Translations under genes and position numbers: made by a program
Notes under the pieces: model-generated
Databases searched by the model: none
The model's input: only the letters and a program-made list of their open reading frames with translations
Told to the model about the DNA's origin: nothing
Source: Pseudovirgaria hyperparasitica
Lineage: Eukaryota > Ascomycota > Dothideomycetes > Acrospermales > Acrospermaceae
Length of the DNA stretch: 64,000 nt
NCBI RefSeq assembly: GCF_010093815.1
Contig: NW_022985565.1
Coordinates: 1 to 64,000, forward strand
Reading direction: 5' to 3'
Shown: positions 4,540-57,174 of the stretch, piece after piece
Position numbering within the stretch: position 1 is the first letter of the stretch
How the letters are laid out: each line of letters opens with the position of its first letter

Positions 4540-7500
4540 ATCTAGTTACTTCTAGTATGTATATCTAGGTCTATTAGTATTAGGGGAGAGGGAGATATAT
4601 AAGTATCTACTAGGTAATCTTCTTAGAGTACTTATTAAGCTACTATATAATATTAGAGGTCCTTATTATATAGATAAGTAATTATCTCAATATATAAAGG
4701 TCCGGGTATATTATAAGATAGTACTATATTATATCTCTCTAGCCGTATACTTTATACTATAGAGACGTATCTAGAACGCCCCTCTAGTATAGGTAGTATA
4801 GAAGTTCTATAGCTTCTATTCGAGCTTAGAGAAGGATAGATACTTAGGCTTTTATAAGCCCCTTATATATCTATCTACTTAGCTCCTTCTATAATCTCTA
4901 AATCTATTCTAAATATCTATTCTATTAGAATGTCTAATAGGTCCGGAGGACTTCCTTCTATTTATTCTAGGTCTATAACTATATAGCCTATATAAGCTTC
5001 TAAGGGTTCTACTAGTCTAGAGAGGCGTCTAGGTTATCCCCGATCTCTTATATAATTTAGTTTAAGTCTATCTCTATTAGACTCTTATACTATAGTTAAT
5101 TCTAGCCTATATATAGTAGTACTTAATAGTAGGTACTAACTCATGTATATAGCGCGGTAAAGGTATATTCAGCGTATTCTACGCGTTTCTATACTTATTA
5201 TTTAGTAAAGTATATTACCCTCTATATCTAGTAGAAGTTATATATACTTATTATATTTATCTTGCGCTATAGTAGTACTATATTAGTAGTCTTATATATA
5301 CTAGAAATAGGACGGAGTATACGGTTCTATATAGACTTAAGCTTTATTTATCTAGTCTATATAAGAACTATATACTAGTACTTATGTCCGTACGTAAAGG
5401 CGGGTCGTACTATAGAGATATATAGTTAGCGTGTCTTATTCTAGGCGGTTCCCTATATAGAGGCCGTAATCTAGTATATAGCGGCTTCTACCTTAAGGGC
5501 CCTAGATACTATATATATAATCTATAGGCTCTATTTAAGTTTATTATTAATTATAATACCGAGTATATATATACTCTATATCGGTAGTTTAGTAAAAGTA
5601 TCTATTCTAGAACGTCGCTCTCCTTTCTTAGTAGCCTATTTTCTATAGTAGTTAATAAAGTATATAAGTTAGTATTTCTTAGAGGTGAACTTTACTCTAT
5701 AGCGCTTTACCTACTAGATATATCTCTTATAGTCTTATTTAAGGCGTTTATATATTAAACTAGTATTATTATTAATAGCTAGAAGGTATATATTATTAGC
5801 GTATCCTACTACCTCTATATATTATATTCTCTATAGAAGGTCTATAGTAAAGAAGAGAAAGAGAATTAGGGAGATAGTACTTTCTTATAGAATACTATAT
5901 ATTATCTTCTTATATTTACTTTAATATCTAGAGATATATATCTAGGTAATTCTTTCGGTAAGGAAGGACTATATAAACCTTATAATCTATTTAGGTATAC
6001 GTCTCTTCCGTAGGTTATAGATAAGTCTTATATAGTTTATCTTATTAAATACGCCGGCTATATTAAGGGAGAGTAATATTACTACGCGTCTCTATTTCTA
6101 TATAGTCTAGATAACTTTAAGGATATATTAGATAGCGGTAATTAGAGAGCTCCTAGTTTTTACCTTCTAATTCGCTAGAAGAAGGTTATATTCTTATACT
6201 ATAGTACTTATCTTCTTCGTAATTATAGTCTTAAGTATCTTACTAAGATAGAAGAGAAGAGTAATTAGTCTCTATCCTTTTAGGGAGTTAGAGTTCTTCC
6301 CTAGTTTTAGAAGTATAATAGTATAGACGGCCTAGAAGCTTTAGGGGTAGTATCTATTCTTAGTATATATCTAGAAGATAAGGCTAATAAGTAGTAGGGT
6401 TATCTATATAGTATATTTAAGGTATCTATTTAGTATTCTATCCGGTCCGGACGCTTTATTATTTAGAAGTACTCTAATAGTATTAAGAATCTTCTCTTCT
6501 ATAATCTCTATAGGGATATTAACCGTGTCTAGATATATATTATTATTAATATCTAATAGATCTACTAGCTCTAGGAGGGGAAATATAACTTCTTAGAGGA
6601 TCTCTATCTTTTTGGGGCTCGTGGTATATATTCTCCCCTAGTATATTAGGGAAGATATTAGTAGTAGTAGCGTCTACACGTCCGCGCTCTTAGCCTACTT
6701 TACTATATACTATAGCTCTATAGCCTATTATATATATTTATTAGTAATTATATACTAGTATTTACGTCATTTATTACGGAGGGTCTTATCTTAAGATTAG
6801 ATTACCTCTTTCTATTCCTTCTATATCTTAGTTATCTAGATATAGTATACACGTATATATAGTCTCCGGGCTACCCTTCTACTTTTATATATTTAAGGTA
6901 TACCCCTTACGTCTAGGGGCTTATATATTTAGTATAGTACGTGTTTATTTCTTAAGTTTTAGAAGGCTTAAAGAAGGACTTATATAGCTCTATCTATAGC
7001 CGGACTATTAGAGACATCGACTATAGAGGGGTCTAGAATTATTAATTCTAGGTCCTTTCTATACTTCTCCTAGTTAGTATCTTTCTATAGCTATCTCCCC
7101 TATTATTCGTTAGACGTAGATATATCTATTACGGTCTCTATATATTCGTAATTAGAGTCCGTTTACGTCTTACTAGGGCGGTAGTATTATACTCTATAGC
7201 TTATATATTCCGTGGTAAAGGTAAGGTCGAGTATAGATCCCTCCTTATCTTCCTTATATTTCCTCTATATAATTTATCCGACTAGCGTAAGGAGGTATAG
7301 AAGGTTATAGTACCTTATATATAGCTCCCTTACTCTAAGCTCTTCTCTAATAACTATCGGGCCTCTCTACTATCTATAGTAGAGGTTAAAGTTACCTAGA
7401 AGGATATATTATCCTAGTTCCGTGATGCCCTCTAGTATAGTATCTAGCGTAAGTAATCCTCTCTAGTTATAGATATTATAGATATAGAGGGGCCCTATAT

Positions 7501-10174: not shown

Positions 10175-10414
10175 TATAAGGATTATAGACGTAGGATAGT
10201 AGTCTAACAGATTATAGAAGGATTCGGGAATATATTTAAAAGGGTAGTCTACTCTTCTAACGAGGTTAATTTCTAAAGAGTAGGAATTAAGTATATACGG
10301 CCTACTTATATAGTAGTCTCGCTTATTCTAGCTAGCTTACCCTAGGTCCACCTATTACGGACCGTACTAGACTATAGTATTCTAGTTAAGTCTATCCTAG
10401 TATTAGCCCTAATA
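10175..10414 (-). repeat. Gypsy 3' LTR (left)
   Basis: A 240-bp repeat nearly identical to 18552-18791. In element orientation the LTR starts TGTTAG-type and ends TCCTTATA. As the left-hand copy of a minus-strand element it is the 3' LTR. Confidence 0.9.
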
Positions 10415-10899
10415 ATATTCTTCTTCTTTTTATGCTTCGCCCTAAAGTACTTAGCTATATATAAATCCGTAATTCTATAAGCGTTATATTTATATACGCA
10501 TCTAATTAAATCTATATAATATTATTAATAGTCTTTATATTAGTAAACTTAAGCTCTAGTTTACTTTTATTTATACACGCGCTTATCCCTTACTTTATAG
10601 CTACTACCTTAAAGGTAGCTCCGCGGGTTATATGACCGCTATATTAACTAAGCTTATATTTAGTTCTCTTATTCTGAATTTTCTTCTCTAGTATATCCAC
10701 CTTACTCTTAAGGTAAGTCGTTAATTCGTATACTATCTCCTTTAGTTTAGATCTATTCGGGTCTAGAGTAGTCTATTTTCGTTAGAGCTAGTTCTATATA
10801 ATCTATTCGCGTTATTACGGTTACTAATTTAGCTTCTTTAATTACCTTTAAGGCTAAACGAGTATTCTACTCTTAGATCTCTAGCTAACGTATATATAT

Positions 10900-12300
10900 A
10901 GATATCTAATACTAGTCCTATTTCTAAGCCTACCTCCTTCTCTCGTAAGACTCGCTCTAAAGAGATTACCTCTACCCCGGCTATACTAGCTAAAAAATCT
11001 ACTTATTATAGTAGTATAAAGGCGCGCTCTAAGTTAGAGAAGAAGATAGCTAAGGCTACTACTACTATTACTACTAACGTAGCTACTAGTCGCTCTAATC
11101 TAGGTAATCCTAGTACTAGTGTTACGGAAGAGGTAGCTATAAAGCCTACCTACACCTACTCGCGCCGTCTATCTACTCTACCTTCTTTAGAGGATAAAGA
11201 AGATCTCGTCGTAGATAATAATCGAGAGTTTATACCTTCGCCGCCTTACTCTAAATACTATTCCTCTTTTCAGTCTAATATAGACCGACTTAGTCGCTCT
11301 AGATTCTTTTAGGACCTTAATATTTACTCTAAACCTAGCCCTAGTAATAATAAGGCCTAGGTCGCCGAAGATACTAAACGTAGTTACGGTTTACGCTATA
11401 GAAAAACGGCGAACTATAGTTTAATATACTTTAAGTATATTAAGGCTTATACTACCGGCTCTAAATATCTCTTCCGCTCTAACTCTAGTATTAGCTACTA
11501 CTCTACTAACCGCGACGGGCCTATATATCTAATCTTTAAGCTCTCTACCCGCTACCGCCGCTATACCGTCCTTAGTAAAGTTTATCTTTAGGTAAGTCTA
11601 TTAGGCTATTTTAGTCTAGAGTAATCTAAAGTTATCCATGCTAATACGTTTTTAGGTTTCTATTTATATATAAGATATATATAACGATCTTCGCGTCCAT
11701 GAGACTCTTAGTAGTTCTAGTAGTTATCTAGCTTCTATACGTAGGGAGTTTAGAGAGCGCTATAAGCTCTTTCTAGAGGTTATTAAAGTATAAGTTTAGA
11801 AACCGTTAATTATTATTAACCTTAGCTTATAATTTTCAGTCGCCGCGAGATTCCTAGCGCTTAGGCTATCTATTCTAGGGAGTTGGTTTTAGCTACTAAG
11901 GCCGTAGAAGAGATTCGTGCTATTCCTTCTTATCCGCCTTATACTACTAACGGGTCTTATAAGAGATCTACTAGTTCTCCTTCTAAGTTACCTCGTAAGA
12001 GGGTATATATTCTATTCTAGATTATTCTAGACCGCGTTAGCTAACTTTAGGTCTAGTCGCTCTACTCTAGCGCTTAGTTATTATCTTACTAGGCTCTAAC
12101 TAAGCGCGTGGTTACTCTAGAGGATAAGGTCTCTAACCTCCGTTACTCTATTACTCGGTTAGTTCGTTTACTACGCTCTAAGAGTAATAATAAGATAGAG
12201 GAGTAGCTCTATGGCTCTATTTACTAGGGTTTCTATATGGTATGTGTTGGCTCTATCTACCTGGTTTCTATCCGTTTTAGTCCTTTTTAGACCGTTTAGA
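10900..12300 (+). other. Antisense open stretch in the gypsy 3' region
   Basis: Between the integrase end and the 3' LTR, the strand opposite to pol has unusually long stop-free runs, the first about 130 codons (about 10900-11310). They have protein-like composition: Ser/Thr/Arg/Lys-rich at first, then an aromatic-rich stretch near 11400-11570, then a Glu/Lys/Leu-rich, coiled-coil-like part near 12110-12190. No clear ATG start is seen. I do not recognise a family. It could be an accessory antisense ORF carried by the element, or a captured gene piece. It is broken. Confidence 0.45.
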
Positions 12301-12457
12301 TACCTATCTACTAGTTTTCTAGTAATTTAATTCTTAACTTAATAATATTATATACGTTCTTATTTATTCTATAACTATTAAATTTTAGGTTCTAATTTCC
12401 TTTAAGTTACTTAAGTATAGGCATCGTATATAAATTAGTTTATCTCTCTAAATTATA

Positions 12458-12557
12458 TTAGAGTACCCGAACCAGTGGCCTAGTAGTTATTAGTTCGGGT
12501 ACTCTAACCTTTTATATTATATGTCACGAGTTTAATTCCGTAGTAGGGTACCTTTTT
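12458..12557 (+). ncRNA. tRNA-like pol III module with strong dyad
   Basis: An A-box-like TGGCCTAGTAGT (12476-12487) and a B-box-like AGTTTAATTCC (12529-12539) are followed by a T5 run (12553-12557) that could end pol III transcription. The A box sits in the 20-nt loop of a perfect dyad with 15-bp arms (12458-12472 and 12493-12507). No canonical acceptor stem forms, so it is a tRNA-derived relic rather than a working tRNA gene. Confidence 0.45.
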
Positions 12558-15500
12558 AGTTTCTTAGTCCTATGTTCTTCTCATATATAATAGTCTATAT
12601 TAGTCTATTCTAGACTTCTCTATATTATTCTATTATAATATATTACGTCGTATGCCTATAACGATTATTTACGTTTTCTTCGCGTTTAGTAACCGTGTAT
12701 CGCTTGAATTATAGGGCTATCTTATAGAGTTTTCCTAGTGTACGTTTAGAATTCGTGATTTAATACTTCGTTCTCTATAGTATCCTTCTTCTTTTTATAA
12801 CGGCCCTAATAGTACTAGGTTTACGGTAGTAATATGTTATTCTATAACCTCTATTTATATATAGCTATCGCGGTACTTAAGATATGTACCGTAGGTTTCT
12901 AGGTGTTCTTATCCTTAGTATAGTTCTTCTAACGAATTTAATACTTTTAGATACCGTTCTCGTTAAGCCTATGTTCGATAATATAGTCTACTTTATATAC
13001 GTCTAGTCTATCTTAGAGTATAATAGAGTGTAATTACACGTTCGTGCGTTTATATATATTAGGTCGAAACCTTTTAAGTAATAAGACGTAGAATATGTTA
13101 TGGACTTTTATATTATTTTCTAGGTTAAGCTTATAGACTCTTATACTAATACGACGTTTAATTCGGAAGGGACTAGCTATTTTATAATCGAGCTTTTTAT
13201 TTACTCGCGATGTTTATATATTACGGACGTTAAGAAGGACTTTATCTCTCTCCTTATACGCTTAATCTTTAACTAATCTATTATAGTACTTTATATACGA
13301 CTTATTCACTTACTAGATTATTACGCGATAGTTACGTGCGGTTTTAAAGATTTTAATTGCTAGTTCCTACGCGTGGACGTTAACATCTATCGTTCGGTTA
13401 AACTAGACCGTATAAGGTTCGAAACCTATCCTTAGACTATATTCTAGGTTCGCCTAGAAGGGCGTAATACCTATTATACTATAACGACTATTATTATATA
13501 TGAATTCTACTATACTTAGTAGAGAGGCCTAGTCGTCTTATTTGAAATTATAGAATGCACGAAGGTAGGCCTCGAGTATTTAGTTCTATCGCTCTATCTA
13601 ACTATCTATTTATAGATAGAATGCTATTAATATGTTTCTATTTATACCGGCTATTTTATAGAATAACGTCTAGAATTTAGACGTGAATATACTCCCTCGG
13701 TCTATAACGATCCTTTTTAGTATACTATAGACCTTAATAATCTTATTCTAGAATACTTATACTAGTTCTTTTAATGTGATTATCTTCTACATAGGGACGT
13801 ACCTAGATATCTTTATAAGTCTATCCACGATAATAAGAATTAAATTATAACTCATTCTAAGTATCTTACTTAGAGGTAAGTTAACTATAAAATCTATAGT
13901 AATATCTTCCTATATAAAGAGGGGGACTAGTAGAGACTATAAGTTCCTATATAGCTTATGCCTAGGTGCCTTTATTCTTTAATAAATTAGATAAGTAGCT
14001 ATCTATTCTTCGATATACTTAGGTATATCTTCCTAAAATTAGTACTAATAAATTAAGCTTAGGGTGCGTATATACCCGAAATGTTCTACTAGGTTAGCGT
14101 TATAGTATCGGCTAACTATAGTAAATCGTACGTTATCTATTAGTATATAGTACTTTCTATTATAGTAGAGTAAGCCATCCACGAAGGTCTACTTATAGTC
14201 TACTTCGGTCCGTAATAACCTATCTTACTATATTTTACGTAACTTTAAAACTATCGGGTCTATCTTTTATAGATCCACGATTAACTAGGCGAGGTCTACT
14301 TAATATACACGCCGGGTACTATCGCCCTCCCTAATAGCGCCGATAAATGGCTCGCTAGAGACTTCGGTACCGTGTCTTTAGTTACCGGCTTTAGTCTTAT
14401 AAATTTAATTACCAGCATCAGCGTTAGCATCTCGCTAATCGTCGGATAACTTATTATCTAACCTCGTCCTTAAGAGTTAGGCCTATAGCTACTCTAGGAC
14501 CCTATAGCTACTATAATCCTAGGCGCCTTCTTTATAGTTAGGTCTTCTTAATATTCTATTAGCTAGGTTTATACTTCTAGATCGATGGTAGATTATAAAG
14601 TAGAAATTTATAAGCTACTTAGCCTATCGAACCTATTAACGATTTAAAACTATTATACTTATAAACCCCTTTAAGTTATAGTAATTAGTTAGTAACTTAA
14701 TATTATATATAGTACCTTTAAGATAATATCGCTACTACTTAAACGACTCTACTATTACTAGTAGCTCTTGGTTATAAATAGTATATCTAGTCTTAACGTT
14801 AGCTATCTTACGCAAGAAGAACGTAACTAGATACTATTAGACCTTTTTAGACTCTATTAGTCTAGGCTAGGAGAGTATACCCGAGATTATAAATTCTAAT
14901 ATATTAGTTTCGACGTAAATAGGTTTAGTTAGATCGAAGTACACTAGTAATAGAGCGGTTATAAATGCTTCTTTAATCTTCTTAAAGGATATTCTTTTAA
15001 CCTTAGTTAATTTAATAGATTATAATTTAATATTATACTATTTCTATCTACCACGGACCGTAATAGATAAGTCGGTAGTAGTAGTATATATATTAAGTAG
15101 TGCGGCTAAATAGGAGAAGTATTTAATAAATTTTTAGTAGTAGTTAGCGAAGCTAATAAAGACACGTATATCTTAAACGGATTTTAGTTTAGGCTAGTCT
15201 ATAATAGTAGTAACTCTATCTCTCTCTATGGTTATACCTTAATTAGTAATAATAAAGCTAAGAAAGTTAATATAGTTCTAATGGAACTTATATTTAGATA
15301 GCTTAATATATAGCTTATACTTTTCTAGCCTATCTAGGACTATATATACGTGCTAGATATACTCCTCCTCGTTATCTAAGAAGATAAGGATGTTATCTAG
15401 GTACACGATATATATCGTATTAAGTAGGCCTACTAGTACGTTATTAATATACGCTTAGAAGGTGCCTAGTACGTTAGTTAGTCTAAAAGGAACTATAGTA

Positions 15501-15846
15501 TACTTAAAGTATCTATAACGGGTCCTAAAAGCCGTTTTCTATTCGTCGCCTTCCTTAATATAAAGGCGATAGTAGACGTTACGTAGATCGAGCTTAGTAA
15601 AGATCTTTACGCGTTCTAGTCTATTAATAGACTCGGAGATAAAAGGTAGTAGATAATAATTCTTTCGCGTAATATTATTTAGACTATAGTAGTTAATATA
15701 TAGACGGAGGCTCCTATCCTTCTTCTTTATAAAGAGAATTAGAGCTCCGGCTAGAGATATACTAGGCCTAATCTATTCTCGCGTAAGGTTCTTTTTAATA
15801 TATTCTCGAAGGGCTTATAACTTAGATTCTAAAAGAGGGTAGATAG

Positions 15847-15998
15847 TGTTAGGCACGTAAGGAGCACGTGGCCTGCCAGTTAATTATACATGTGTGTAGT
15901 AGTCGTATATAAGTAGTATACTCCACCCTTAAAGTAGTAGCTTCAAGATTCGGTCCTTTTAGTATAGTTGGTTAGTGTGTGGAGCCCGCCTCCTTATA
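15847..15998 (+). repeat. TRIM copy 1, left LTR
   Basis: A 152-bp LTR starting TGTTAGGCACG and ending CCTCCTTATA. It holds a TATATAAG box (15906-15913), a CACGTG E-box (15865-15870) and, at 15934, the sequence that pairs with the primer-binding site. An A-box match TAGTATAGTTGG lies at 15960-15971. Confidence 0.9.
15906..15913 (+). promoter_or_regulatory. TATA box of the TRIM LTR
   Basis: TATATAAG lies 28 bp upstream of 15934. That spacing predicts transcription starting at about the segment that is complementary to the primer-binding site. The same box is present in the right LTR and in TRIM copy 2. Confidence 0.55.
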
Positions 15999-16036
15999 TA
16001 ATCTTAAAGCTACTACGGGGTCACGGGTTCAACTCT
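15960..16036 (+). ncRNA. tRNA-like A/B box pair across the TRIM LTR junction
   Basis: TAGTATAGTTGG (15960-15971) fits the pol III A-box consensus TRGYNNARNNGG exactly. GGTTCAACTCT (16026-16036) fits the B-box consensus with one mismatch, 55 bp downstream. The A box lies in the LTR and the B box in the internal region, so only the left LTR plus the middle makes the full module. It may be a captured tRNA piece or an internal pol III promoter. No complete cloverleaf was found. Confidence 0.5.
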
Positions 16037-16295
16037 CGGTCTAGTCAACCGTTATTAAATTTCGCACGATTCCGTTTAGCTTGCCACGTTACGTGTCCTT
16101 TAAGCACGTGACGGATAACATGGTAGTAACATTACTATGGTAAGTTAGTGTGTCTGGTGCTAGAGGCGGTATTACGAGTATTGGTTATGTGTGTACATGG
16201 TTTATACTAGGCCCGTTACGGCTAGTTTAGTTTATCTTTCGTAAGGTAGTATACCCACGACGTGTAAGGATACGCGCCTTTGAAAAGGGGGATAA

Positions 16296-16447
16296 TATTA
16301 GGCACGTGAGGAGCACGTGGCCTACTAGTTAATTATACATGTATGTAGTAGTTGTATATAAGTAGTGTACTCCACCCTTAAAGTAGTAGCTTCAAGATTC
16401 GGTCCTTTTGGTGTAGTTGGTTAGTGCGTGGAGCCCGCCTCCTTATA
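16296..16447 (+). repeat. TRIM copy 1, right LTR
   Basis: A 152-bp partner of the left LTR, differing by a few transitions. Two CACGTG motifs lie near its start (16303-16308, 16314-16319). Confidence 0.9.
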
Positions 16448-18551
16448 GATAGGTTCATATAGAGGTTACTAGCCGTCTTCGAGATTAATAGTAAGGTTAG
16501 TAGATTAGTATTAAGGTAGTTTAGAGGAATCGATCGCTAACACGATATATTAGTATATTTTATACTAATATAGTAGGTTTTCGTCTACTTTAATACTAAG
16601 CTCGCTATTTTACGTGAGTAAGAGTATATAGATAGTAGAGATCGCCTTCTTATAATCCTTCTAGAATTATTTATTCTCGATAAGCTATACTAGTTTCTAT
16701 TAAGGTAGGTTTATACGCTAGCTAGCTATCTTCTTAAGGAAGTCTAGTTTTAGGTTATATTTCTTAAGCTATAGTATACCTAGAATTATATTAAAGGGAC
16801 TATCTACCACGATAAAGGTTAAGTAGTAGAGTTTCTATTTCCCTCCGCTATCCTAGATACCGTATTTAATAGTATAGATACTATATAACTTAATAGAACC
16901 GTCGATACTATGGAACATAGCACCTATTAGAGCTTAGATATCGGCGTTAAGTTCTCGTGCTCGTTAGGTTAATATAACGTTAGTAGCCGACCTACTATTA
17001 AGTATTATAGTTTAATATTATCTACGAGGGACCTTAATAGGTCTAGTCTATAGTTTAATATACTATTTAGCGGATTACCCCTCTATTATAGTCGCGTCTA
17101 TAAGTCGCGAGGGTTTCTCGTAGACTATTAGTTTTTTATATTCTATACTAGGTAGTTAGGCGCGATATGTTCTAGCTACTAGCACTTATAGTATATAACT
17201 AGTTAGTTAGTTATATTAGTACTTAGTAGCTTCCCTAAACGGTACTTAGATACTATATAGTCTATTCTACTATAGGTATAGTAAGTAACTTTAGGTCGTT
17301 TATACGAGTCGGTCCTTATATCTTAATATATTAATTAGTAGGGAGATCCACGATACGATCCGCGTGGTTTTAAATTTAAGGCGTGGTAGTAGCCTTATAA
17401 CGTCCCGCGAGATCTATTACTAAATCGGTTTTAGTTAGATAATTTTACGTTAGATTAGATTATTAGGGATAGTTATACACTAGCGCGGTGTTAATTATTT
17501 ATTATATACTAGTATCGCTCCGCGAGGTTTATAAGAGCTTAGAGGTCTATAGAGATTATCGTTATAAGGTTAAAACGGTCCTTTATATTTAGGGTAAGAG
17601 ACCGTTTAAAGTCGTTATACTATCGAATTATATAATCTTCTTCGGCTTCTCTCTAGAGGGGCCGAAGGTATTTAAGGAGTTATAACGGTAACTAATTATC
17701 TCGTTATCGAGTCTTAAAGATATGGCCCTAGGCCTAGTTACGTTGTTTAGCTCTATCGCTAAAATATTAGAGGAGAAATTCGGTAAACATGTCCTAGTTA
17801 TAGGCATCCTTAGAATATTCGATTTAGTATACTATCTAACGTTCTAAAGGCGTCGGGTTAAGGTAGTTCTAGGCGAATCTAATTTTATTACTATCGTTCG
17901 TAAATAGATAGAAGAATCGGCTATATTAGTAAGCCTATACGTGGAAACTCTTTCTACTTTTACTATTAAAGTAAGGTGGTTTCTTAGGTCGGGGTAATTA
18001 GGATAGTAGTAGACTAGAATGGATCGTTTTAGTTGGTATAGGTCTATATAAATATAGATTAGTCGTTGCTAGAACTAAAGCGTATAATATAGCTTTAAGT
18101 CTCGTAGTACGTCCTTAAGCTTTATTAAGTTTACGTAGTTATTACTCGAGTTAAACCTATCGTTACCTCTCTTTATATAGTCTAGTATATACGTCGTTAT
18201 AAGGTGTAGTTAATATTAGGCGATTCTAACGGATTAACTCATTAACGTTAATAAGGTCTAGCCTTATATTAAGGTTAGGTCTAGTATAGTTTAAACTAGA
18301 CCGAGATAGAGTATAATAGACTCTATCCTCGTATTCTATAATATCTTCTATAGTTATACGGAATATTATACGAGTTATTAGTACGATAGTCTATAAGGTA
18401 TAATTATCGGTAGGGGTAGTTATAGGTAGACTATTCTTCTTATTTAGGTTAGGAGAAGGTCTACTATAAGAGGCGGTACCACGAGTATTATAATAAGTGG
18501 TTAGAGCCGTTTCTATGAACTACTATCGTGCTATATAAAGAGAAATTAAAA

Positions 18552-18791
18552 TATAAGGATTATAGACGTAGGATAGTAGTCTAATAGATCATAGGAGGAT
18601 TCGGGAATATATTTAAAAGGGTAGTCTACTCTTCTAACGAGGTTAATTTCTAAAGAGTAGGAATTAAGTGTGTGCGGCCTACTTATATAGTAGTCTCGCT
18701 TATTCTAGCTAGCTTACCCTAGGTCCACCTGTTACGGACCGTACTAGACCATAGTATTCTAGTTAAGTCTATCCTAGTATCAGCCCTAACA
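18552..18791 (-). repeat. Gypsy 5' LTR (right)
   Basis: A 240-bp LTR that keeps TG...TA ends (TGTTAGGGCTG start, AATCCTTATA end in element orientation). A TATATAAG box lies inside on the minus strand. The sequence just inside the LTR (18541-18549) is complementary over 9 nt to 18643-18651 within the LTR, a possible self-priming primer-binding site. Confidence 0.9.
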
Positions 18792-19925: not shown

Positions 19926-19997
19926 TTAATAATAGTACTAATTAATAATAACCTATTATAGAGATAATAGGTTATTATTAATTAGTACTATTATTAA
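19926..19997. repeat. 33-bp-arm perfect palindrome
   Basis: Arms at 19926-19958 and 19965-19997 are perfect inverted repeats around a 6-nt spacer (TAGAGA). The arms include TAGTACTAATTAATAATAAC. A perfect 33-bp dyad in RIP-mutated DNA implies recent formation or repair of one arm from the other. Confidence 0.85.
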
Positions 19998-31947: not shown

Positions 31948-32548
31948 TATAAGGAGGCAGGCTCCACGTACCAACCAACTATACTAAAAGGACCGAATCT
32001 TAAAGCTACTACTTCAAGGGTGGAGTACACTACTTATATACGACTACTATACATATGTAGAATTAACTGGTAGGCCACGTGCTCCTTATGTACCTAATAT
32101 TATCTCCCTTCTCGAAGGCGCGTGTCCTTACGCGTCGTAGGTATACTACCTTACGAAAGATAAACTAAACTAGCCGTAACGGGCCTAGTATAAACGATGT
32201 ATACATATAACTAATACTCGTAATGCCGCCTCTAGCACTAGATACGCTAACTTACCATAGTAACGTTACTACCATGTTATCCGTCACGTGTATAAAGTAT
32301 ATATAATATGGTAAGCTAAACGAAATCGTGCGAAATTTAATAACGGTTAACTAGACCGAGAGTTAAACCCGTAACCCCGTAGTAGCTTTAAGATTATATA
32401 AGGAGGCGGGCTCCACGCACTAACTAACTATACTAAAAGAACCGAATCTTAAAGCTACTACTTCAAGGGTGGAGTACACTACTTATATACGACTACTATA
32501 TACATGTAGAATCAACTAGTAGGCTACGTGCTCCTTACGTGCCTAATA
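31948..32548 (-). mobile_element. 601-bp TRIM, copy 2
   Basis: The same family and exact length as 15847-16447, in reverse orientation, with the 5-bp target duplication CTATT (31943-31947, 32549-32553). LTRs are 31948-32099 and 32397-32548. The primer-binding site (32379-32395) is perfectly complementary over 17 nt to 32445-32461 in the LTR. It is more RIP-mutated than copy 1 and so older. TRIM plus duplication is 606 bp, which leaves the surrounding helicase frame in register. Confidence 0.9.
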
Positions 32549-34670: not shown

Positions 34671-36163
34671 CTATAAGAAAAATCGAATTTATAATTAGGT
34701 TTAATAATAATATATTCCTTAAAATACTAGTACCTATATCTAACTAGTAGAAAGATTATAGTAACGCTTCGTATATTAATTTAGTAGTATTTATATAGTA
34801 AATTAGGGTCTAATATATAATAAAGACTAGGAGGGCACTTAACTAGAGCTATACTACCATATATTCTATTATACTACTAGTTAAGTATATAATAAGTAAA
34901 ATAGAACTAGAGATAGATATTAGATAGCTTCTATAGTTACTAATTAAACGTATTCTAGAATATAGTAATAGTATAATACTCCTTAGCCTTAGATAGAATA
35001 TAGATAGTATACTAGAAGTAAAACGAAATATAAACCAGCGACTAATATATAATAGTATAGATAGCTATATATAGATTATACTTAAATGAATCTATCCTTC
35101 CGTCTCTAATACTATACTCGCTATAACTAGTATAATAATAGTAATAGAAAGCTACTATCTATAACGGTAGAGATACCCATAGAGATAGTATTATAGATAG
35201 TAGATAGTATTATCTAAACGACTCGACCCTTCCTCTAGTAATACTATATATACTACTATTAGTACCCGGAAAGCTATAAGACTAATCTATAAACTCTAAA
35301 GATAGTAACTTCGAAAGCCTTAGAAGTACCTTAGATATAGAGGATATAGATCTCGATTATAAAGAGTAATAGAATAATAAAAAGGGTACTAGGGGTAGTA
35401 AGAGTAGTACGCGTGTTTAGCCAAGGTAATATAATACTAATATAAGACGGGTTCTATCTATAGTATATTAGTATATACCTAATTCTACTAGCTATATAAC
35501 TATAGTACGTATATTTAATTAAGATATTAATATACTAGTATAAGCCGGCATCTATCTATTTTATATCGGTATACGCCTAGTTCTACTAGCTATATTATTA
35601 CTCTAATTATATTTGTATAAGATCTATACTAATAATTAAATATTTACTTATATACTTTACTTTCTCCGTACTTTACGAAATTATATTATAATTGGTAAAT
35701 ATAGTAACTTAACCTCTACTACCTAAATATAGTTTTTAACTCTTATCGCTACTAACTCTATCTTATTACCTATAATCTAAGTTATATATAGAAATATATA
35801 AGTATAGTAAGAGTTACGACCGTCCTAGCTCGACTACTAGCTATAGAATAGCTAACTATAATATATACGTACGACGTACGGAGGCCTTAAGTATTAGCGC
35901 CTTTCTACTATATATCTAGTACCTCTAAGGTCTATACCGACTACCTAAAATAAGTTATAGTATATATAGAGATACTATTATTAAGATAGCATGCGGAAAA
36001 GTATTATAAGAGCTTAAAAATAGTAGTATAGATACTACTATACTTATTAGAATAGTTAAGGAAACCATTACTAAAGAATTTAATTAGTATATCGTGGCTA
36101 TAGATAGTAAGTTAGTACTAATAGTTACGGCCATAGATATAATAGAGGCTAAACTAGATATAG

Positions 36164-37325
36164 ATATACTAGCTATAGATATATAGTTATAGTTACTATT
36201 AGAATATAAAGAGAAAGAGAATATAGAAGATACTAAAATAGAAGACGACGTAATAAGTATACTTAGATATATATATATACTCGGTACTAGATACTAATAT
36301 TAGAGTAGTATTAAAGATAGATGCGGCTATAATTACTAACTTAGATAATCTCTCTATAAGTACCGTTATATCTAGCGAAGCTTATATACGCGTAAATATA
36401 CTAGCTATAGATATATAGTTATAGTTACTATTAGAATATAAAGAGAAAGAGAATATAGAAGATACTAAAATAGAAGATGACGTAATAAGTATACTTAGAT
36501 ATATATATATACTCGGTACTAGATACTAATATTAGAGTAGTATTAAAGATAGATACGGCTATAATTACTAACTTAGATAATCCCTCTATAAGTACTATTA
36601 TACCTAGTAAAGCTTATATACACGTAAATATACTAGCTATAGATATATAGTTATAGTTACTATTAGAATATAAAGAGAAAGTAGTTATAGAAGATACTAA
36701 AATAGAAGATAACATAATAAGTATACTTAGATATATATATATATACTCGGTACTAGATACTAATATTAGAGTAGTATCGAAGATAGATACGGCTATACTT
36801 ACCGACTTAGATAATCCCTCTATAAGTACCGTCGTATCTAGCGAAGCTTATACACGCATAAATATACTAGCTATAGATATATAGTTATAGTTACCGTCGG
36901 AATATAAAGAGAAAGTAGTTATAGAAGATACTAAAATAGAAGATAATATAATAAGTATACTTAGATATATATATATATACTTAGTACTAGATACTAATAT
37001 TAGAGTAGTATTAAAGATAGATATAGCCATGCTTACCGACTTAGATAATCCCTCTATAAGTACCGTTATATCTAGCGAAGCTTATATATACGTAAATATA
37101 CTAGCTATAGATATATAGTTATAGTCGCTATTAGAATATAAAGAGAAAGTAGTTATAGAAGATACTAAAATAGAAGACGACGTAATAAGTATACTTAGAT
37201 ATATATATATACTTAGTACTAGATACTAATATTAGAGTAGTATTAAAGATAGATATAGCTATAATTACCGACTTAGATAATTATATAATAGATACCGTCG
37301 TGCCTCTAGATACTAGTAAAGCTTA
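36164..37325 (+). repeat. 232-234-bp tandem repeat, 5 units
   Basis: Units start at 36164, 36396, 36628, 36862 and 37096 with ATATACTAGCTATAGATATA. The 234-bp units equal 78 codons and read through as ...YKEKVVIEDTKIEDNIISIL... followed by DTNIRVV and LTDLDNPSIS blocks. The 232-bp units differ by one TA in an internal (TA)n tract. High similarity between units suggests a recent expansion or gene conversion before RIP. Confidence 0.9.
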
Positions 37326-40261
37326 TCTATAGTTACTAGTAGTAAAGAGAATACTCTCGAATAATATAGTAAACCCTATAGATTCTCCTAAACGCTTAAA
37401 ACTAGAATATAGTATACTACTAGATATTAACCGGTAGATACTTAAGTACTAGGATCTAATCGGGTTAATAGACAATTTATATAGTAGAAATATATTAGAT
37501 ATATTAGATAATATATTAGTAGATAATATTACCTTTATTACTTATCCCCTAGGCGATAAGTCTAATAAAGATAAAGTAAAACTAGATACGGATAACGATC
37601 TTCTAGTAGATAATAACCTTAGTATAAAACTTTAGGAAGTATAAGTTATACTAAGTAGTAAGTAGAAATATATACTACTATACTAATATATCTATAGAGT
37701 ATTTACCGTTAATAACTCTAATAAAGTAATCTAAGCTATCTCTTATTATATAGAAGAGATATAGTTACTTACTATAAGTATATTTAGACTCGCGCTAGAT
37801 AATCTAATAAAGGACTTCGGCTATATATCTATTCTATATCTAGCCTTTAGTATAAGTAGGTTATATAGACTATAGGCCGGCTAATTACTCGCGGTAGTTA
37901 CTATATTTAAGTAGCGGACGGGTCCGTAGAACTACTAGATCTTAGTAGATAGTCTAGGGCTAGAGAAGACTATTATACTTATAATATTTATCTACCTTAT
38001 ATTCTATTAGGACTTTCTACGCGATAATATAGAACTATATCTAGAAAAGTATCTTCTACCGACTTAAGACCTAGGCATAGATAGAAAGTACCTAATATAA
38101 TCTCTATATCCGATTAAATATCTATATAGCTAGACTAATGAATTTAGTAAGGTGCCCTACCTCTAAGAACTATTTATACTATACTATCTAAGGAACCTTC
38201 TAGTATTATATTAGCTATAGCGCTTTAACTAGATATACTATAATGCGGATAGTATATTTACTAATAAAATCGATAAACGGAACCTAATAAAGATAGTAGT
38301 ACGGTTAGCGTACTCGAAAACCCTTCTTAATATCTCTAATATCTAATAACTCTTATCTATAGACGTATACTATCTAGCTAAGAGGTACCCTAACTCCGAA
38401 TAGGAATATCACGATAATATTAGTAATCCTATGAAATACGAGACCGGTAAGGAGTATATTACTAAGAAGTAGTTAATTTATGTTAATAAGACCGCTACTA
38501 TTAAATTCCCGTTATAATATACGAAGAATAATATAGTCTATACTACTATCTAAAGTATAGAGATCTAATATATTATAAACTTCGCTAGATACATAGTTCG
38601 AAAAGAGAAGAAGGCGAAAAAATTTAGCGCTAATATTATTTAAACCTATAATATAGTATTTATTAGTATATTTATAGTAGACGAGTTCTATACCTTAAAA
38701 AAACCTATAATAAAATAGTATAGGTATACGCGACTTAATCCCTTTATATTTAGTATATAGGTTAGTATAACGCCCCTCTTAAATAGTCTATTAGATATTT
38801 TATCGGCTATTAGAATAGATATTCTAGATCGGTTACCTAACTACATTAACGATAATACTACTAAATTAGTATTCAAGAGTATATAGAAGGGATCTATAAA
38901 AAAGATAGTTATAACGTAGTTAAATAAACTCCTCTCTTAAATAAAAAACAAGCTAGTAGAGATAATAGCCGGTATAGTTAGTATAGTATTAGAAACTATA
39001 GATAGTAAGCGTATACTACGTATAGTAGCCGATTAGTATTTACTATTTATTCTATAAAGGGGATAACTAAGTAAGTAGTTTAACGGAAAGAACTATCTAT
39101 CTATAATAGTAACTCTAGTAGTAGATATTATATATATCGCCGCTATAGATATAGAGAAGCGGGTCGTATAGTTATATAAGAATAAAGGCCAAAGGCTCCT
39201 TAAATAAGCTATTGCCTAGGGTAAATCGAACGGGCTCGGGTATAATATATACTACTATAAGGCTAGGCTAGCTACTATATATATACTACTTATATACCTT
39301 ACTAATAAAAGGATAAGTAAGGAATATATTAAAATTAGGCTTATATATCTATTAATAGATAATAATAGTATACTAGATAGAGTGATTGTTAATCCTATAC
39401 GCGAATTACTCCCCTAGCTAGATAATAGTATATAAAAGAATATAATCTTACTAGCTTTAAAAGGAGTCGCTTTAAAGGTAAACTAGCTCCATAAGCTTAT
39501 TAATAAAAAGATTTATAATAAAAATACTAAATACACGCGTTAAATGTTTACTAACTAACTAGAGAAAATCGTAATTATATCTACTATACTAGTAACTATA
39601 ATATTCCTATATATAGTAAGTATTTATATTAGTACTTACTAGTAACATAATTTACTAATATATATATAGGCACTACGTTTATATATAAAATTAAAAATAT
39701 TAGTATATTTACTAGCCGGCCTAAGTATATCTAGTATAAATAAGGTATACTAAGATTTTAGGTTGAATAAGTTAGATTCTCTATATATTTTACTAGCCTT
39801 AGCTTTATAAGTCTATAAGGGATAAGACCTAATAGTTACTAGTTATATTATATTAGTAGACTAATATCTATATAAGAAGACATGGCCATAGATAAATATA
39901 AGATATTATTACTATAGATAATATTAGTCTATAGTATATATATATACTTTAGTTTTAGACTATTTAGGGGTTAAGAGTAGACTTACCGCGTTAGACTAGG
40001 TAATCGAAAGTATAAGGAAATAAGCCTTAGACCTAGAAAAAGAAGATATATCTATAGTAGCGATAACTATACCTAATATACTAGTATTAGATATATACTT
40101 TAGTAATCCCGTAGAGATATAGAAGTAAGTAAGATAGTTAGTTAAGTAGCTTCTAAGAGACTAGATAGTATAGTAGTATAAATATAAACTACTATTTACT
40201 TATAATTATATATCTATATATATATATACGTAAAGAGAAATAAGATATTTATTCTATACTA

Positions 40262-40460
40262 GTATATAGTAGAACGTTACTATATATACCGGTATATAAT
40301 AGAATATTCTAATATACGCCGGTATATTATAGGATATTTCTAGATACTTAAAATATAGTCGTAATATAAAGTAGTATTACTATTATATACCGGTATATAG
40401 TAGAACGTTACTATATATACTAGTATATAATAGAATATTCTAATATACGCTAGTATATAA
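40262..40460 (+). repeat. Direct repeat pair with TACCGGTATA motifs
   Basis: About 70 bp starting GTATATAGTAGAACGTTAC occurs twice (about 40262-40336 and 40391-40460), each with CGCCGGTATA or CGCTAGTATA near its end. It follows the SNF2 C-terminus. Confidence 0.7.
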
Positions 40461-46094: not shown

Positions 46095-46341
46095 TCTCCG
46101 TACCTACACGTGCTACCTAAGGGTAAACTATTATAATATAGGCTATAGGCCCATAGGTAGCCCCTAGGGCTATATATATATAAAGAACGAGAGGATAGAT
46201 AGAGCGTAGTTATGGATATAAGGGAGTTTTTCCTATTCGTAGGTTTCTTCTTATATAGTAGCTTAGACTAGAGGAGGCATGCGCCTATAGAGTAGTACTC
46301 TACCTAGTTTACTAATATTATTATTATTATATATCTCTTAA

Positions 46342-47587
46342 ATAAAGCTCTATATAGATTAAAGTAGACTAGTAGATAATAGTAATTACTACTAGCTAGT
46401 ATATTAGAGGGTCTAGACTTTATTAATCTAAAATTAGATAATAGTATTTATATTCATAAATATAAATATATTATTCTAGCTATCTATATAGATAATATAT
46501 TAGTCTTCTCTAAAAATTTAGAAGATATTAATATACTCTATAAGGATATATCTAGAGTCTCTAAATTAGAAGTATCTAATTTAGAAGAAATAAAGGAATT
46601 CTTAGGAATAGAGATTATAAGAGATAGAAAACGAAAATCTCTTATTATTTCCCAAAAGAGCTTTATTAATAAGATTATATCTAAATATAATAAAGCTACT
46701 AATAAGCCTAAGGATATATCTATCTCTATAGAAGTTAAACTATCTAAAAATCTAGATAAAAGTAATTCTAAGCTTATAGAATAGTACTAGTAAGAGATAG
46801 AGTCTTTAATATATATATCTATATTTACTAGATCTAACTTAGTCTATTCTATAAACTATTTTACTAGATTTATATCTAATTCTAGTCTAGAATATTATAA
46901 ATACTTAAATAACTACCTATAGGGTTATTTAATTAAGACTAAGGATTTAGTACTAGATTTAACTCTAGACTCTAGTTCTAATCTAATCTCTAATTCTATT
47001 AATCTAATAGGAATTAGTAATTCGGATTAGGGAGGGAATATAGACTCTAGAAAATCTACTACGGGTAATATATTCTTATTATCTAATAAGAATAAAGAAG
47101 ATAGTAATATAGCTATTAGCTAGCTATCTAAATTATAAAAAATAGTAGCTATTAGTTTAGCTAAGGCCGAATATATAGCCTTAAAAGAAGCTACTAAAGA
47201 GAGTCTATTCTTAAATAATTTTATTAAAGAACTCTTTAATAGTAACTCTAATATTAAAGAGTATTATAAGGTCTTTAATAAAATAAATACTATTAAAATA
47301 GACTCTTTAAGTACTATAGAACTAGCTAAAAACCCTATATACTATACTAGGACTAAGTATATAGATATTACTTATTACTTTATTAGAGAAAACCTAAGCT
47401 CTAATAAAATAGAACTAGTTTATAAAAATACTAGTACTATATTAAGTGATAATCTAACTAAATAAACTAATAAAGAGAAATTTTAAGACTTTATTAGTAA
47501 AATTAGACTTATAAATATCTCTTAAGACTATTTATACTATTCTATATATATTTATATATATATATACCTTATAAAACTTAAGAGGGT
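46342..47587 (+). mobile_element. Copia-type element, RT/RNase H segment (fossil)
   Basis: Continues the copia element after LINE B. The KALYxLKQ-type RT region is at the left junction, an active-site-type YVDxxL region near 46490, and a copia RNase H region near 47120-47200. A short purine tract (about 47579-47587) precedes the LTR. Broken, with many breaks. Confidence 0.8.
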
Positions 47588-48060
47588 ATATAAACTCTAC
47601 CTCTACTATCTAATAACTTTCTATAAGGTATTTCCTTATTAGGAATAGCTTAATATTAGTAATCGACCTTACTAATATTATCTACTTATATATATAAATA
47701 CTCTATACTCTTATAGAAGTTTCTAGAACTCTCTAGAAACTTCTAGAGGTCTTTAGAAATATAAACTTCTATAGAATTCTATAAGATTCTACTATAGAGT
47801 CTATAAGTTCTATAGAATTCTACTCTACTCTATTCTATTCTAAGGAAACTACTAGAGCTATAGAATATATATATATATATCTAGAGGTCTAGAAGATTCC
47901 TATTATTAATACAGAGAAGAATCTAGAATATATAAGGAGGAATATATAAGGAACGGTCTCTCTATATATTTAGTTCTCTCTCTATCTTGTCTTTACTTTA
48001 AGAATTATACTATATTCTTATTATCTTTAAGCTATACTCTACTAATCTATTTATTATATA
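47588..48060 (+). repeat. Copia-type LTR
   Basis: Starts TATATAAACTCTACC after a purine tract and shares its first part with the minus-strand LTR fragment at 1-97. The right boundary, near 48060, is a guess from where copia gag-like sequence begins soon after. Only one LTR is present between copia sequence on both sides. Confidence 0.6.
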
Positions 48061-48129: not shown

Positions 48130-49262
48130 ATATATCTATTTATACCTACCCTTTTTACACTAAGGAATATAAGAACCTAGTAACTATTATTACCTAGTCT
48201 ATTAGAAAAGATAGGGATTTAGATATAGATAAAATATTTAACTATCTACTAGATAAGTCTAGAAGGATAAAATTAAAGTCTTTACTAAAAAATAAGATAA
48301 TAGATATAGAAATAGTAAATAATACTAGTTCTAATAAATACTCTTACTATAAGAAACTAAATTATATAGAAGATAAGTATTTTAAAAAATATCCTTATTT
48401 AAAACCTTCTAATAAAGGGAAAGGAAAGTAAAAACTAAAGAAAAAGAAAGAGAAAAAGAAAGAGATAAATACTTCTTCTAAATAAGAAGAAGAGGTATTT
48501 ACTACTTTAATTAATAACTCTACTATTTAAAAAATAGAGTCTATTAATAGCTCTTTCTATAAAACCTCTTAGATTATAGATTTAGAGACTAGTATTAATA
48601 TATACTCTAATAAGAGTCTCTTTATTAGTATTAAAGAATATAATAATACTATTAAATAGGGAGATTTAAATAGAGTTATAAATGCTAGTAGTATAGCCGA
48701 TTATAGAGTTCTAATTATATCTACTAATATAGAGATATTAATTAAGAACTACCTTTATATACCTAATTTTAGAGTAAATCTAATATCTATAGAAAAGATA
48801 ATTAGAGATAGAAAGTCTATATTATTTAAAGATAACTATATCTATATCTATTTAAAGAATAAGAGGCTATTAGCTAAGGCTAGTATAATAAATAATATTA
48901 GTATTCTTAAGATAACTTCTATATATAAAGAACCTGATTCTTTATATACCTCTATAGAAAATAAGATTATAGACACTTAAAGTAGTTCTATTAATTCTAC
49001 TATAGATTTATAGTATAATAGATTAGGCTATATAAATTAAAAGGCATTAAATTAACTAAAAATATAATAAGATTATAGAATTCCTAGATAATAATCTATT
49101 ATATAAAGAGTGTAAAATATATCTAAAGGCTAGTTATACTAAAATATATAAGTCTAATTATATTCCTAAACCTAAGGAATATCTAGAGGTTATATATAGT
49201 AACATTTATAGTCCTTTACCATCTACTATAAATAATTATATATATATTAAGATCATTAATAA
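48130..49262 (+). mobile_element. Copia-type gag-protease-integrase segment (fossil)
   Basis: Plus-strand remnant that follows the LTR: the distal part of gag with a zinc-knuckle region near 48340, a Lys-rich stretch, a protease region near 48570, and a pre-integrase/integrase start near 49020-49250 (EYLEVIY-type block). The proximal half of gag is absent and the segment stops within integrase at about 49262. Broken in several places. Confidence 0.75.
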
Positions 49263-52297: not shown

Positions 52298-52545
52298 TAT
52301 ACTTATTATAAAACTTCCTTTACATCCCTAAGAGGCTAACTTGGTCCATTCGGGGTAATATAGCAAGATATACACCTTAATCGATAGAGTATACTAAGTA
52401 TACTAACTACTACTATACGCACGTACGTGCAGCGTCGAAACCAAGACGTTATCGCCGTGTAAAGATATATATATACCCTCTTAAAATCCTCACGGAGATA
52501 GAGGCACGGACCACGCTACTAGAACGCTAATACGCCGACCCCCTT

Positions 52546-52576
52546 TTATTAGTTAAGGGTAGCCCTTAACTAATAA
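52546..52576. repeat. 31-bp LINE palindrome, D 5' side
   Basis: A perfect dyad ending two bases before the ORF1 start ATGGCGGCC at 52579. Confidence 0.9.
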
Positions 52577-52578
52577 AT

Positions 52579-54050
52579 ATGGCGGCCTTAGGCACCGACA
52601 TACCCTAGCATATACTAGATATACCCCTACTAGTACGATAGAAAAGGCTATATAGCGACATTACTAAGGGTAACTATATACCTATCTAAAACGTAGAATA
52701 TACCTAAAGGCGCACGCCGCTATAGATAGATAGAATAAAGGGGACCCCGAGAGGGGAAACCCTTCTAGATTATATTAACTACTAGGTAGCACGTATAGAG
52801 AAGGAAGCCGGAGAGGGCTAGAAGACCCTCCTATATATATTCTAGGACCTTATCCGGAATCTAAAGGGAATTATAGAGGAGAAGAAGAAGATATAACTAG
52901 AAGGACCGAAGGGTAGGCTCGACCGAATAGAGGCCAGCCTATATAGAATCTAGGAGGAACTTACTTAAGGTAAGCGCCCTAGTATATAGGTATAAATAGT
53001 AGTAACACCGGAGGCTATACCACGGGCCCCCCGGACCGGTAACGCGGCGTGTAGTATACGCGTCGCAATCTAGGATAAGGACACCCTAGTATAGGTCTAG
53101 TAAGCATCCCTAAAGGACATAGTAAGTAAGATTAATAAATAAAAGGGAATATAGTTAAATATTATCGCTACTAAACTCACGCTAGGAGGAGTAGTACTTA
53201 CCACGATAACGAATATCGCGTAGTAGACCATCTTACGTAATCCAAACGCGATTAGTAGTATCTTTCTAGGCGCCTCTATTAGGGCGGCTATATACCCGAT
53301 ATAGATATACTCTATACCTGTAAGCGGATAGGTTATCGGAGAAGAGGATATTACGCGGATAGAATAGTTAAATAAGTAAAAATACCCAGGGATTAAGATT
53401 ATAAGAGTATGGTAGAAGAATATATAAGGGATTAAAACCAGATCGAAGGTATACTCTACTATAATAGTAGAGCTTAAGGACCCCGCCCTCGCGTATTAAA
53501 TTACGTAAGAGAGATTCCTAGCGGAAGGGGAGCTTCTTATAGCGGAACCATAGGATAGAGTATAGGCGATAATATAGTGCTTTAACTATTAGGGATACGG
53601 GTATACGGTATAGCGGTACTCCTAAAAGACTAGATATAGATAGTATTAATAAGAATATAGTACCTAGAAGTACCCCTACGGGACACGAGGAGAGGGCTAG
53701 AGAGATAGAGATATAGCGAAGTACTCTAACTACGACGGCAAGTACCCGTTATAGTCGGCTACGTGCGCGAAACGTAAATAGGTTACTAAATATATCTACT
53801 TAATCCGGATAAAGGGAGTAAGGTAGCTATAAACGATGCGATCTACTACTATTCCTCTCTTTACTATAATACTACTACTATAGACTATCTCCTTATAAGG
53901 AAGCGGTTAGGAATAGTAAACTATCCCGAGAAAGCTAATAATAGGACGGCCCTAAGGAATTACTAAGGCCGCCGCCGTACGAGGATAGTCGCGTCTTAGA
54001 GGAATAAATATATAGGCCTATATATTCCCTAGCACCTAATAAGAGACCAA
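52579..54050 (+). pseudogene. LINE D ORF1 remnant
   Basis: Starts ATGGCGGCCTTAGGCACC (MAALGT...), as in copy A, and is stopped after a few codons by RIP-type change. The zinc-knuckle-like region is near 53640-53770. Confidence 0.7.
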
Positions 54051-54064
54051 GATATACTCCTAAT

Positions 54065-55535
54065 TATATAGGCAAACGTATAGTATAAATGTAAGAACTA
54101 GGCGACACTCCTTAAGGAGACCGGAGCTATAATACTCGCTATATAGGAGCTATATAAACACTACTAGACAAATAAACCAATAACACACCTAGGATATTAT
54201 ATAATACACCCCCTAGGACCGGAGAGGAGAGTCCTCTTCTATGTCTATAAGTCTATCCTACTCTTATTATAGTTATATACTAAACGGGATAACCTCCGGA
54301 TAATACTATACCTCTAGATAAATATCGGACCCCTCTATATATATAATATATATAATTAGAACCGATTACTTTAGGCGGATAACATGCTTAAGGATACCAC
54401 CGAGCTAGAATAACACATCCTCCTAGGAGACTTTAACCTCTATTATAGCTAGTAGAGTGGACTAACCGTTACCCGCGAAGAGCTTCGAGCTAGAGAACTA
54501 CGTACCTAATACCACGGCTTTCTATACCTTCTTATACTAGTAGGATAGATTACCTAGCGAAAACATAAATAAGATAAGAGCGGATCCACACTCGACCTTA
54601 CCCTAGCCACTAGATACATTTATAATAGGACTTAATACTACCGCCTAAGCCTTATATAGATAGACTCCGACCACGAATATATAGAGACCGTAATAGACGT
54701 ATCCACCCCTTAAGACTAATAAGGGCGATAGCTATAGAAGGATACTAACTAGGAAAAGTACCTAAAGGACCTAGAATCGACGATCCTAGACCTGTCTATA
54801 GTCGACGTATCTAATGGCCCGGCCATTAACCAGGCCGTGAATATACTCCTATAGGCGTACTAGGGAGTAAGAGATAAACACGTGCCGTACTGAATATATA
54901 GACCCCTAGACCCGAAAAGTATATCTTAAGTATAAGAGTATAGGCGAGAAGTCTAGAGATTATATATACGCGTATACTATAACTATATACCTAAAGCGTA
55001 GAATAAATAGAGAGAGACGAGAAGATAACGAGATAAGGTCCTCTATAACGAGCGATATAAATAGTAGCGTATAGTCACGGATAGATATACACGTAATACC
55101 ACTAGACTATGGTATATAGTAAAATGGGCTAAAAGCACCGCCTCCCCGACACCTATACTACTTATACCCCCCCTTATATATTAAGAAAAGACGTACTCTA
55201 CGAGCCTTAAGAAAATAGAGATTCTATAAGAGGTTATGTTCCCTCTCCTAGAACCCGTAGACCTATTAGATATTAATAGTACGGAATACCCGGAAGCCGT
55301 AAGTATCCCTAGGGAAATCACGGACGATAATATACTCGGCGCTATTAAGATACTCCCGAACGATAAAGCGCCTAGGCTAGATAGAATTCCGAATCGATGC
55401 CTTAAGAGGACTATATAGGCGACCTTACTAATTATAGGCTATATATTCCGAGCGTGCGCCCGTATAGGATACTACCCATAGAGCTTCCGAACTATATATA
55501 TAGTTATACTCCTAAAACTAGGGAAGAGTCTAAAC
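54065..55535 (+). pseudogene. LINE D ORF2 remnant, cut by the scaffold gap
   Basis: Endonuclease region with LLGDFNLYY near 54423, then the start of RT. An open 60-codon run at 55236-55418 contains PNDKAPRLDRIPNR, the conserved RT block of this clade. The frame is cut by the N gap. Confidence 0.75.
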
Positions 55536-55545: not shown

Positions 55546-55658
55546 CGTCGAAACCAAGACGTTATCGCCGTGTAAAGATATATATATACCCTCTTAAAAT
55601 CCTCACGGAGATAGAGGCACGGACCACGCTACTAGAACGCTAATACGCCGACCCCCTT

Positions 55659-55689
55659 TTATTAGTTAAGGGTAGCCCTTAACTAATAA
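55659..55689. repeat. 31-bp LINE palindrome, E 5' side
   Basis: The same as 52546-52576, displaced by 3113 bp; probably the same physical site. Confidence 0.85.
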
Positions 55690-55691
55690 AT

Positions 55692-57165: not shown

Positions 57166-57174
57166 TATACTCCT

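Follow-up and report, generated by a model that had tools for sequence, protein, structure and literature searches.

A 601-bp TRIM whose primer-binding site pairs with its own LTR: probable Tf1-like self-priming with a candidate chromovirus helper

The TRIM present in two copies in the window (the whole 64-kb stretch of DNA that was analysed) carries, beside its 5' LTR, a 17-nt arm that is complementary to a segment of the same LTR downstream of the TATA box. Here it is proposed, with a probability of roughly 0.77, that this element would be primed in the manner of Tf1 by the 5' end of its own RNA, with enzymes supplied by a Tf1/sushi-like chromovirus. Tf1-like self-priming and dependence on a self-priming partner had both been suggested in the original prediction. 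The anatomy fits the first suggestion, and for the second a plausible family is found in the window, namely a chromovirus whose LTRs have the termini and the TATA motif of the TRIM and whose TSDs are equally long; it also has a 9-bp LTR/PBS match, in a layout that two relatives keep with substitutions in both arms. Judged from sequence, the TRIM has what self-priming requires and the enclosing chromovirus has a similar site; the simplest reading would be that the TRIM primes itself and is mobilised by a chromovirus from this group.

The 601-bp unit is a genuine LTR element. Both copies have LTRs within 100-250 bp, a short non-coding interior and a total length below 1 kb, with a 297-bp interior between LTRs of 152 bp (32397-32548 and 31948-32099 in copy 2) and no frame above 58 aa, and the TSD, the PBS position and the polypurine tract expected of an LTR element are all present (Table 1). 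The LTRs start with TGTTAGG or TATTAGG and end with TCCTTATA, and the two LTRs of each copy differ by transitions only (copy 1, 10; copy 2, 12). The copies are 90% identical across 610 bp, and 41 of the 58 differences between them belong to the two classes that RIP predicts, CpA/TpA and TpG/TpA; the window as a whole is heavily RIP-mutated, as would suit a filamentous fungus (GC 33%, TpA/ApT 1.66, (CpA+TpG)/(ApC+GpT) 0.16). A self-search of the window gave these two copies only, the TRIM motif had 0 matches in GTDB genomes and 0 in IMG/VR, and no match to the TRIM was found in plasmid sequences.

Table 1. Positions of the TRIM copies, the chromovirus enclosing copy 1 and their features in the window.
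Feature	Position	Strand	Remarks
TRIM copy 1, 601 bp	15847..16447	+	longest overlapping stop-to-stop frame 52 aa
Copy 1 TSD GATAG, left	15842..15846	+
Copy 1 TSD GATAG, right	16448..16452	+
Copy 1 5' LTR, 152 bp, TGTTAGG...TCCTTATA	15847..15998	+
Copy 1 TATA box TATATAAG	15906..15913	+	first T 28 nt before LTR arm
Copy 1 LTR arm GTAGTAGCTTCAAGATT	15934..15950	+	proposed transcript 5' end and self-primer
Copy 1 A-box-like motif	15960..15971	+	in 5' LTR; 3' LTR counterpart at 16409 less altered by RIP-type changes
Copy 1 internal arm AATCTTAAAGCTACTAC	16000..16016	+	proposed primer-binding site, one base past LTR
Copy 1 B-box-like motif GGTTCAACTC	16026..16035	+	nine bases beyond internal arm
Copy 1 polypurine tract GAAAAGGGGGA	16282..16292	+	precedes 3' LTR; read from sequence
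Copy 1 3' LTR, 152 bp	16296..16447	+
TRIM copy 2, 601 bp	31948..32548	-	TSD AATAG; longest overlapping stop-to-stop frame 58 aa
Copy 2 LTR arm	32445..32461	-
Copy 2 primer-binding arm	32379..32395	-	17/17 paired
RIP-damaged Ty3/gypsy chromovirus holding TRIM copy 1	10175..18791	-	candidate helper family
Chromovirus LTRs, 240 bp	18552-18791 and 10175-10414	-	10 differences, transitions only
Chromovirus LTR arm AGAAATTAA	18643..18651	-	38 nt after first T of its TATATAAG
Chromovirus internal arm TTAATTTCT	18541..18549	-	2 nt past 5' LTR

The complementarity claimed in the original prediction was recovered in both copies, with one mismatch in copy 1 (16 of 17 pairs) and a perfect match over 17 nt in copy 2, and it counts as one observation because the copies share descent. 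Two details of its placement were revised. The internal arm had been put two bases inside the LTR end; the LTR stops at 15998 and the arm begins after T15999. The LTR arm, which occupies LTR positions 88-104, had been put 28 bp after TATATAAG, which is right when counted from the first T (15906) and wrong when counted from the end of the motif (15913), as the arm follows that end after 20 bp. As RNA duplexes the arms have energies of -18.5 and -22.6 kcal/mol. The 127-nt leader from the proposed start folds no better than its shuffles in copy 1 (z -0.66) and exceptionally well in copy 2 (z -2.80).

The copies differ at arm position 11 by C/T. The letter is identical in both LTRs within each copy, so the difference is probably older than the insertion, although RIP might have produced it in parallel. 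An A stands opposite this position in the PBS of each copy, which gives the A/C mismatch of copy 1, and the PBS side of that mismatch is a RIP-type site. The pattern would agree with arms that were fully paired when the copies inserted, which two copies cannot prove.

The match could in principle be a chance product, or a by-product of rearrangement, in RIP-mutated DNA of low complexity. Inverted repeats of at least 16/17 with a gap of 3-300 are indeed commoner in the window (53, overlapping, and many of them from one palindrome) than in ten second-order Markov simulations (1-11), and an Rfam search with the stem itself gives just weak, sub-cut-off matches to miRNA hairpins. The pairing is meaningful through its location, next to the LTR end and on the downstream side of the TATA box, and not as an inverted repeat as such. 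As a control, the TRIM copies and the LTR regions of the chromovirus were masked and 20,000 random 40-mers drawn from the rest of the window. Each stood in for the start of an internal region (offsets 0-4) and was scored for a perfect match to the copy 2 5' LTR; at least 13 bp was reached at a frequency of 0.0001 and at least 14 bp in 0 of the 20,000 draws. With a similar layout seen in different letters in three chromoviruses (below), a chance origin is highly improbable. Long palindromes of the window include 19926-19997 (94% over 72 bp) and 40245-40438 (80% over about 200 bp), and a tandem array at 36161-37301 consists of units of about 232 bp, mostly 90-92% alike.

In Tf1, pairing with the PBS involves the first 11 bases of the RNA, and cleavage by RNase H falls between bases 11 and 12 (described in PMC7175516). 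By the same route, the TRIM RNA would start at 15934 or close to it and fold its first 17 nt onto the primer-binding site, the RNase H of the helper would cut after about nt 17, and the freed RNA end would prime minus-strand DNA, the enzymes coming from a Tf1/sushi-like chromovirus of the 10175-18791 kind that shares the TRIM LTR ends. Each round would then re-copy the primer-binding site from the 5' end of the RNA itself, so that fresh copies would be fully paired and the mismatch of copy 1 would be later RIP damage. If transcription began at 15939 instead, the distance from the first T of the TATA box would be 33 nt, as in one of the chromovirus relatives (L001, below), and the primer would have 12 nt; it would leave five further pairs of the TRIM unexplained.

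A primer-binding site for a tRNA 3' end makes the interior start with TGG, or with TAG as a RIP product. The TRIM interior starts with neither in both copies, and a tRNA 3' end is thus unfitting. Another tRNA-based reading is that the primer is an anticodon half, cut from the inside of a host tRNA, as in most fungal Helenus TRIMs, and that the LTR match has some other cause. Most fungal Helenus TRIMs are described as matching the tRNA anticodon loop and as being moved by Copia elements with 5-bp TSDs (both in the account given in PMC10886601); Copia pol fragments are present in the window at 46335-46722 and 48576-48804 (RVT_2 and Pol_BBD). This reading leaves the 17-bp LTR match at the proper distance from the TATA box unexplained, the same account describes Helenus families as having no complementarity between the tRNA-like part of the LTR and the PBS (PMC10886601), and the LTR ends of the TRIM match a chromovirus; it is considered quite unlikely. 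LTRs of the Copia fragments were not found in the window. A pair of 99-bp inverted copies (1-99 and 47587-47683, 91% alike), the second of which is near a Copia fragment, are perhaps LTR pieces.

The TRIM also contains A-box-like (TGGTGTAGTTGG) and B-box-like (GGTTCAACTC) motifs, called against the consensus of these boxes, and they are a hint of Pol III transcription that tRNA searches do not support. The B-box pattern has four matches on both strands of the window, two of which are the TRIM copies. This would agree with a Helenus-like Pol III transcript, driven by an A box within the LTR and a B box lying beyond the PBS, in which the stem is mainly structural. Such a reading is very improbable: ARAGORN with default settings found no tRNA, Rfam gave no tRNA at E up to 10, the B box of the TRIM is outside the LTR, and a TTTT run starts at nt 24 of the proposed RNA. 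Relaxed ARAGORN hits fall on the TRIMs, as two of 103 in the window, a number for which they were dropped as tRNA evidence. The lack of other TTTT runs in the TRIM was rejected as a Pol III sign, with 1002 of 2544 windows of 448 nt likewise without them. The two mechanisms might also be combined, in a self-primed Pol III TRIM in which the 17-nt RNA start replaces the tRNA and the boxes replace a Pol II promoter, with all proteins supplied by a chromovirus. Of the two LTRs only the 5' one would then give a complete promoter, as its A box alone is followed by the B box just beyond the PBS; this combination is regarded as unlikely.

Priming of the TRIM by its own RNA, as preferred here, also involves a helper, for which the chromovirus that encloses copy 1 is the candidate family. 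RVT_1, RT_RNaseH_2, RT_RNaseH and SH3_Tf2-1 exceed the Pfam cut-offs in it when stops are read through, and Ty3 RT is its top match among solved structures; the stretch 10175-18791 has the Ty3/gypsy RT, the RNase H and the integrase SH3 domain by which Tf1/sushi elements are recognised. A chromodomain match directly after the SH3 domain is sub-threshold (E 0.0069, 16.7 bits vs a cut-off of 25.1). The TSD of the chromovirus (CTAAG, 5 bp) has the same length as those of the TRIM, and its LTRs have in common with the TRIM LTRs the TGTTAGG start, the TCCTTATA end and TATATAAGTAG. This chromovirus copy is older than the TRIM insertion that it carries and is not necessarily the helper. A recurrent 5.3-kb family of the window was rejected as a TRIM partner, being a non-LTR element (RT, with a sub-cut-off endonuclease match). 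In this family, two adjacent RIP-mutated stretches of 3.1 kb (52433-55535 and 55546-58648) are 99.97% identical, vs about 69-93% for other copy pairs, and represent either an artefact of assembly or a duplication that followed RIP.

The chromovirus has its own LTR/PBS match of 9 bp, with TTAATTTCT complementary to AGAAATTAA. Random draws reach 9 bp anywhere in its LTR at a frequency of 0.024, and at 0.0005 in the zone 20 to 45 nt after the TATA box, a zone picked only after the match had been seen. The first 48 internal nt include a second perfect 9-bp match, farther from the LTR, and two higher-scoring matches with G-U pairs tolerated, also deeper. The 9-bp duplex is weak (-6.2 kcal/mol) and is absent from the minimum-energy fold of the leader.

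A GTDB genome scan with a piece of the chromovirus RT gave one relative among 110 pattern-matching stretches, L001 (QHXS01000157.1), with an RT 44% identical to that of the window chromovirus; the assembly of L001 contained a second relative, L004, with an RT 79% identical to that of L001. This assembly, a soil MAG, is labelled Acidobacteria, and we infer that the two contigs are eukaryotic contamination, probably fungal. No further relatives were found in IMG/VR or in phages, a search of the 396 genomes of the phylum of G001 gave G001 alone, and three plasmid records match at 28-38% identity. L001 encodes a protease, RT, RNase H, integrase and a clear chromodomain, and its LTR was placed at 4745-4994. 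Its 387-bp terminal repeats were rejected as LTRs, as they are located in gag-like coding sequence; this self-overlap, expected of a circle or a tandem, suggests a circularly assembled contig.

In L001, TTCGAAGCT (4998), three bases past the LTR, is the complement of AGCTTCGAA (4848), which lies 33 nt downstream of the first T of TATATATA. In L004, AGCTTTGAA (4312) pairs with TTCAAAGCT (4485), again three bases past the LTR, and a TATA box was not found with the pattern used. Each has one further 9-bp inverted repeat in the scanned stretch, and the random frequency of at least 9 bp anywhere in the LTR is 0.0026 for L001 and 0.0074 for L004. Five of the nine pairs vary among the three chromoviruses, each of them in both arms, and one of these changes is a C-G to T-A exchange that separates L001 from L004, close relatives that are not fully independent of each other. 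As the arms were picked by their pairing, the 27 of 27 paired cells follow by construction, and what counts as evidence from the chromovirus arms is only that they recur in the same place, together with the random frequencies. Counted from the first T of the TATA box, the arm begins at 28 nt in the TRIM, 33 in L001 and 38 in the chromovirus of the window, and the PBS is offset from the LTR by 1 nt in the TRIM, 2 in the window chromovirus and 3 in both L001 and L004. The letters of the TRIM arm differ from those of the window chromovirus arm, and its length is 17 bp vs 9 in the three chromoviruses; the TRIM arm includes AGCTTCAAG, resembling the arms of L001 and L004.

If the proposed reading is true, promoter, primer and primer-binding site of the TRIM would fit within about 110 bp and be usable in trans, which would offer a small substrate on which the needs of Tf1-type machinery could be tested. 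It would also give a simple route to match fungal mini-elements with self-priming helpers.

Self-priming is called likely common in Tf1/Sushi elements in PMC6317226, where it is also predicted for the plant TAR Copia elements; self-priming alone thus names no chromovirus helper, and a helper other than a chromovirus is possible for the TRIM. Elements named as self-priming in PMC6934838 are Tf1, Tf2, Tj1, Maggy, Cft-1, Skippy, Grasshopper, Boty and Afut1, Tj1 being so named in PMC4600332 as well. Self-priming is not universal: SM-Tcn1, which is a plant element from the related Tcn1 clade, showed no sign of priming by itself or by a tRNA, according to the passage on it in PMC2864245. A paper on bivalve TRIMs, the nearest among the matches listed, presents self-priming as known elsewhere and puts forward no clear mechanism for the element it describes (in the relevant section of PMC6934838). 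No self-primed TRIM was recognised in open-access titles and abstract starts among the matches listed, which is weak evidence of novelty.

Like the Tf1/sushi chromoviruses, the TRIM would have an RNA 5' end complementary to the PBS beside the 5' LTR, given the RNA start predicted here; those elements are autonomous and coding, whereas the TRIM has 601 bp and no frame above 58 aa, and the pairing of Tf1 covers 11 bp, compared with 17 bp in this TRIM. With TRIMs in general it shares a length below 1 kb, LTRs of 100-250 bp, the PBS position and the polypurine tract; TRIMs are usually described with a tRNA-matching PBS (as in PMC6934838), whereas that of the present element pairs with its own LTR. 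Helenus elements are likewise fungal and short, with box-A- and box-B-like motifs, and the 5-bp TSD seen here is reported for both fungal and plant Helenus TRIMs (in PMC10886601). They differ in the tRNA primers and the Copia helpers proposed for them (in the same source, PMC10886601), in contrast to the self match and the chromovirus-like ends found here, and they have boxes A and B inside the LTR, whereas the B-box-like motif of this TRIM is in the interior; with its B box outside the LTR and no tRNA found by default ARAGORN or Rfam, the TRIM falls outside the Helenus definition as tested. Self-priming itself is known from autonomous fungal chromoviruses, and what seems new is its combination with a TRIM.
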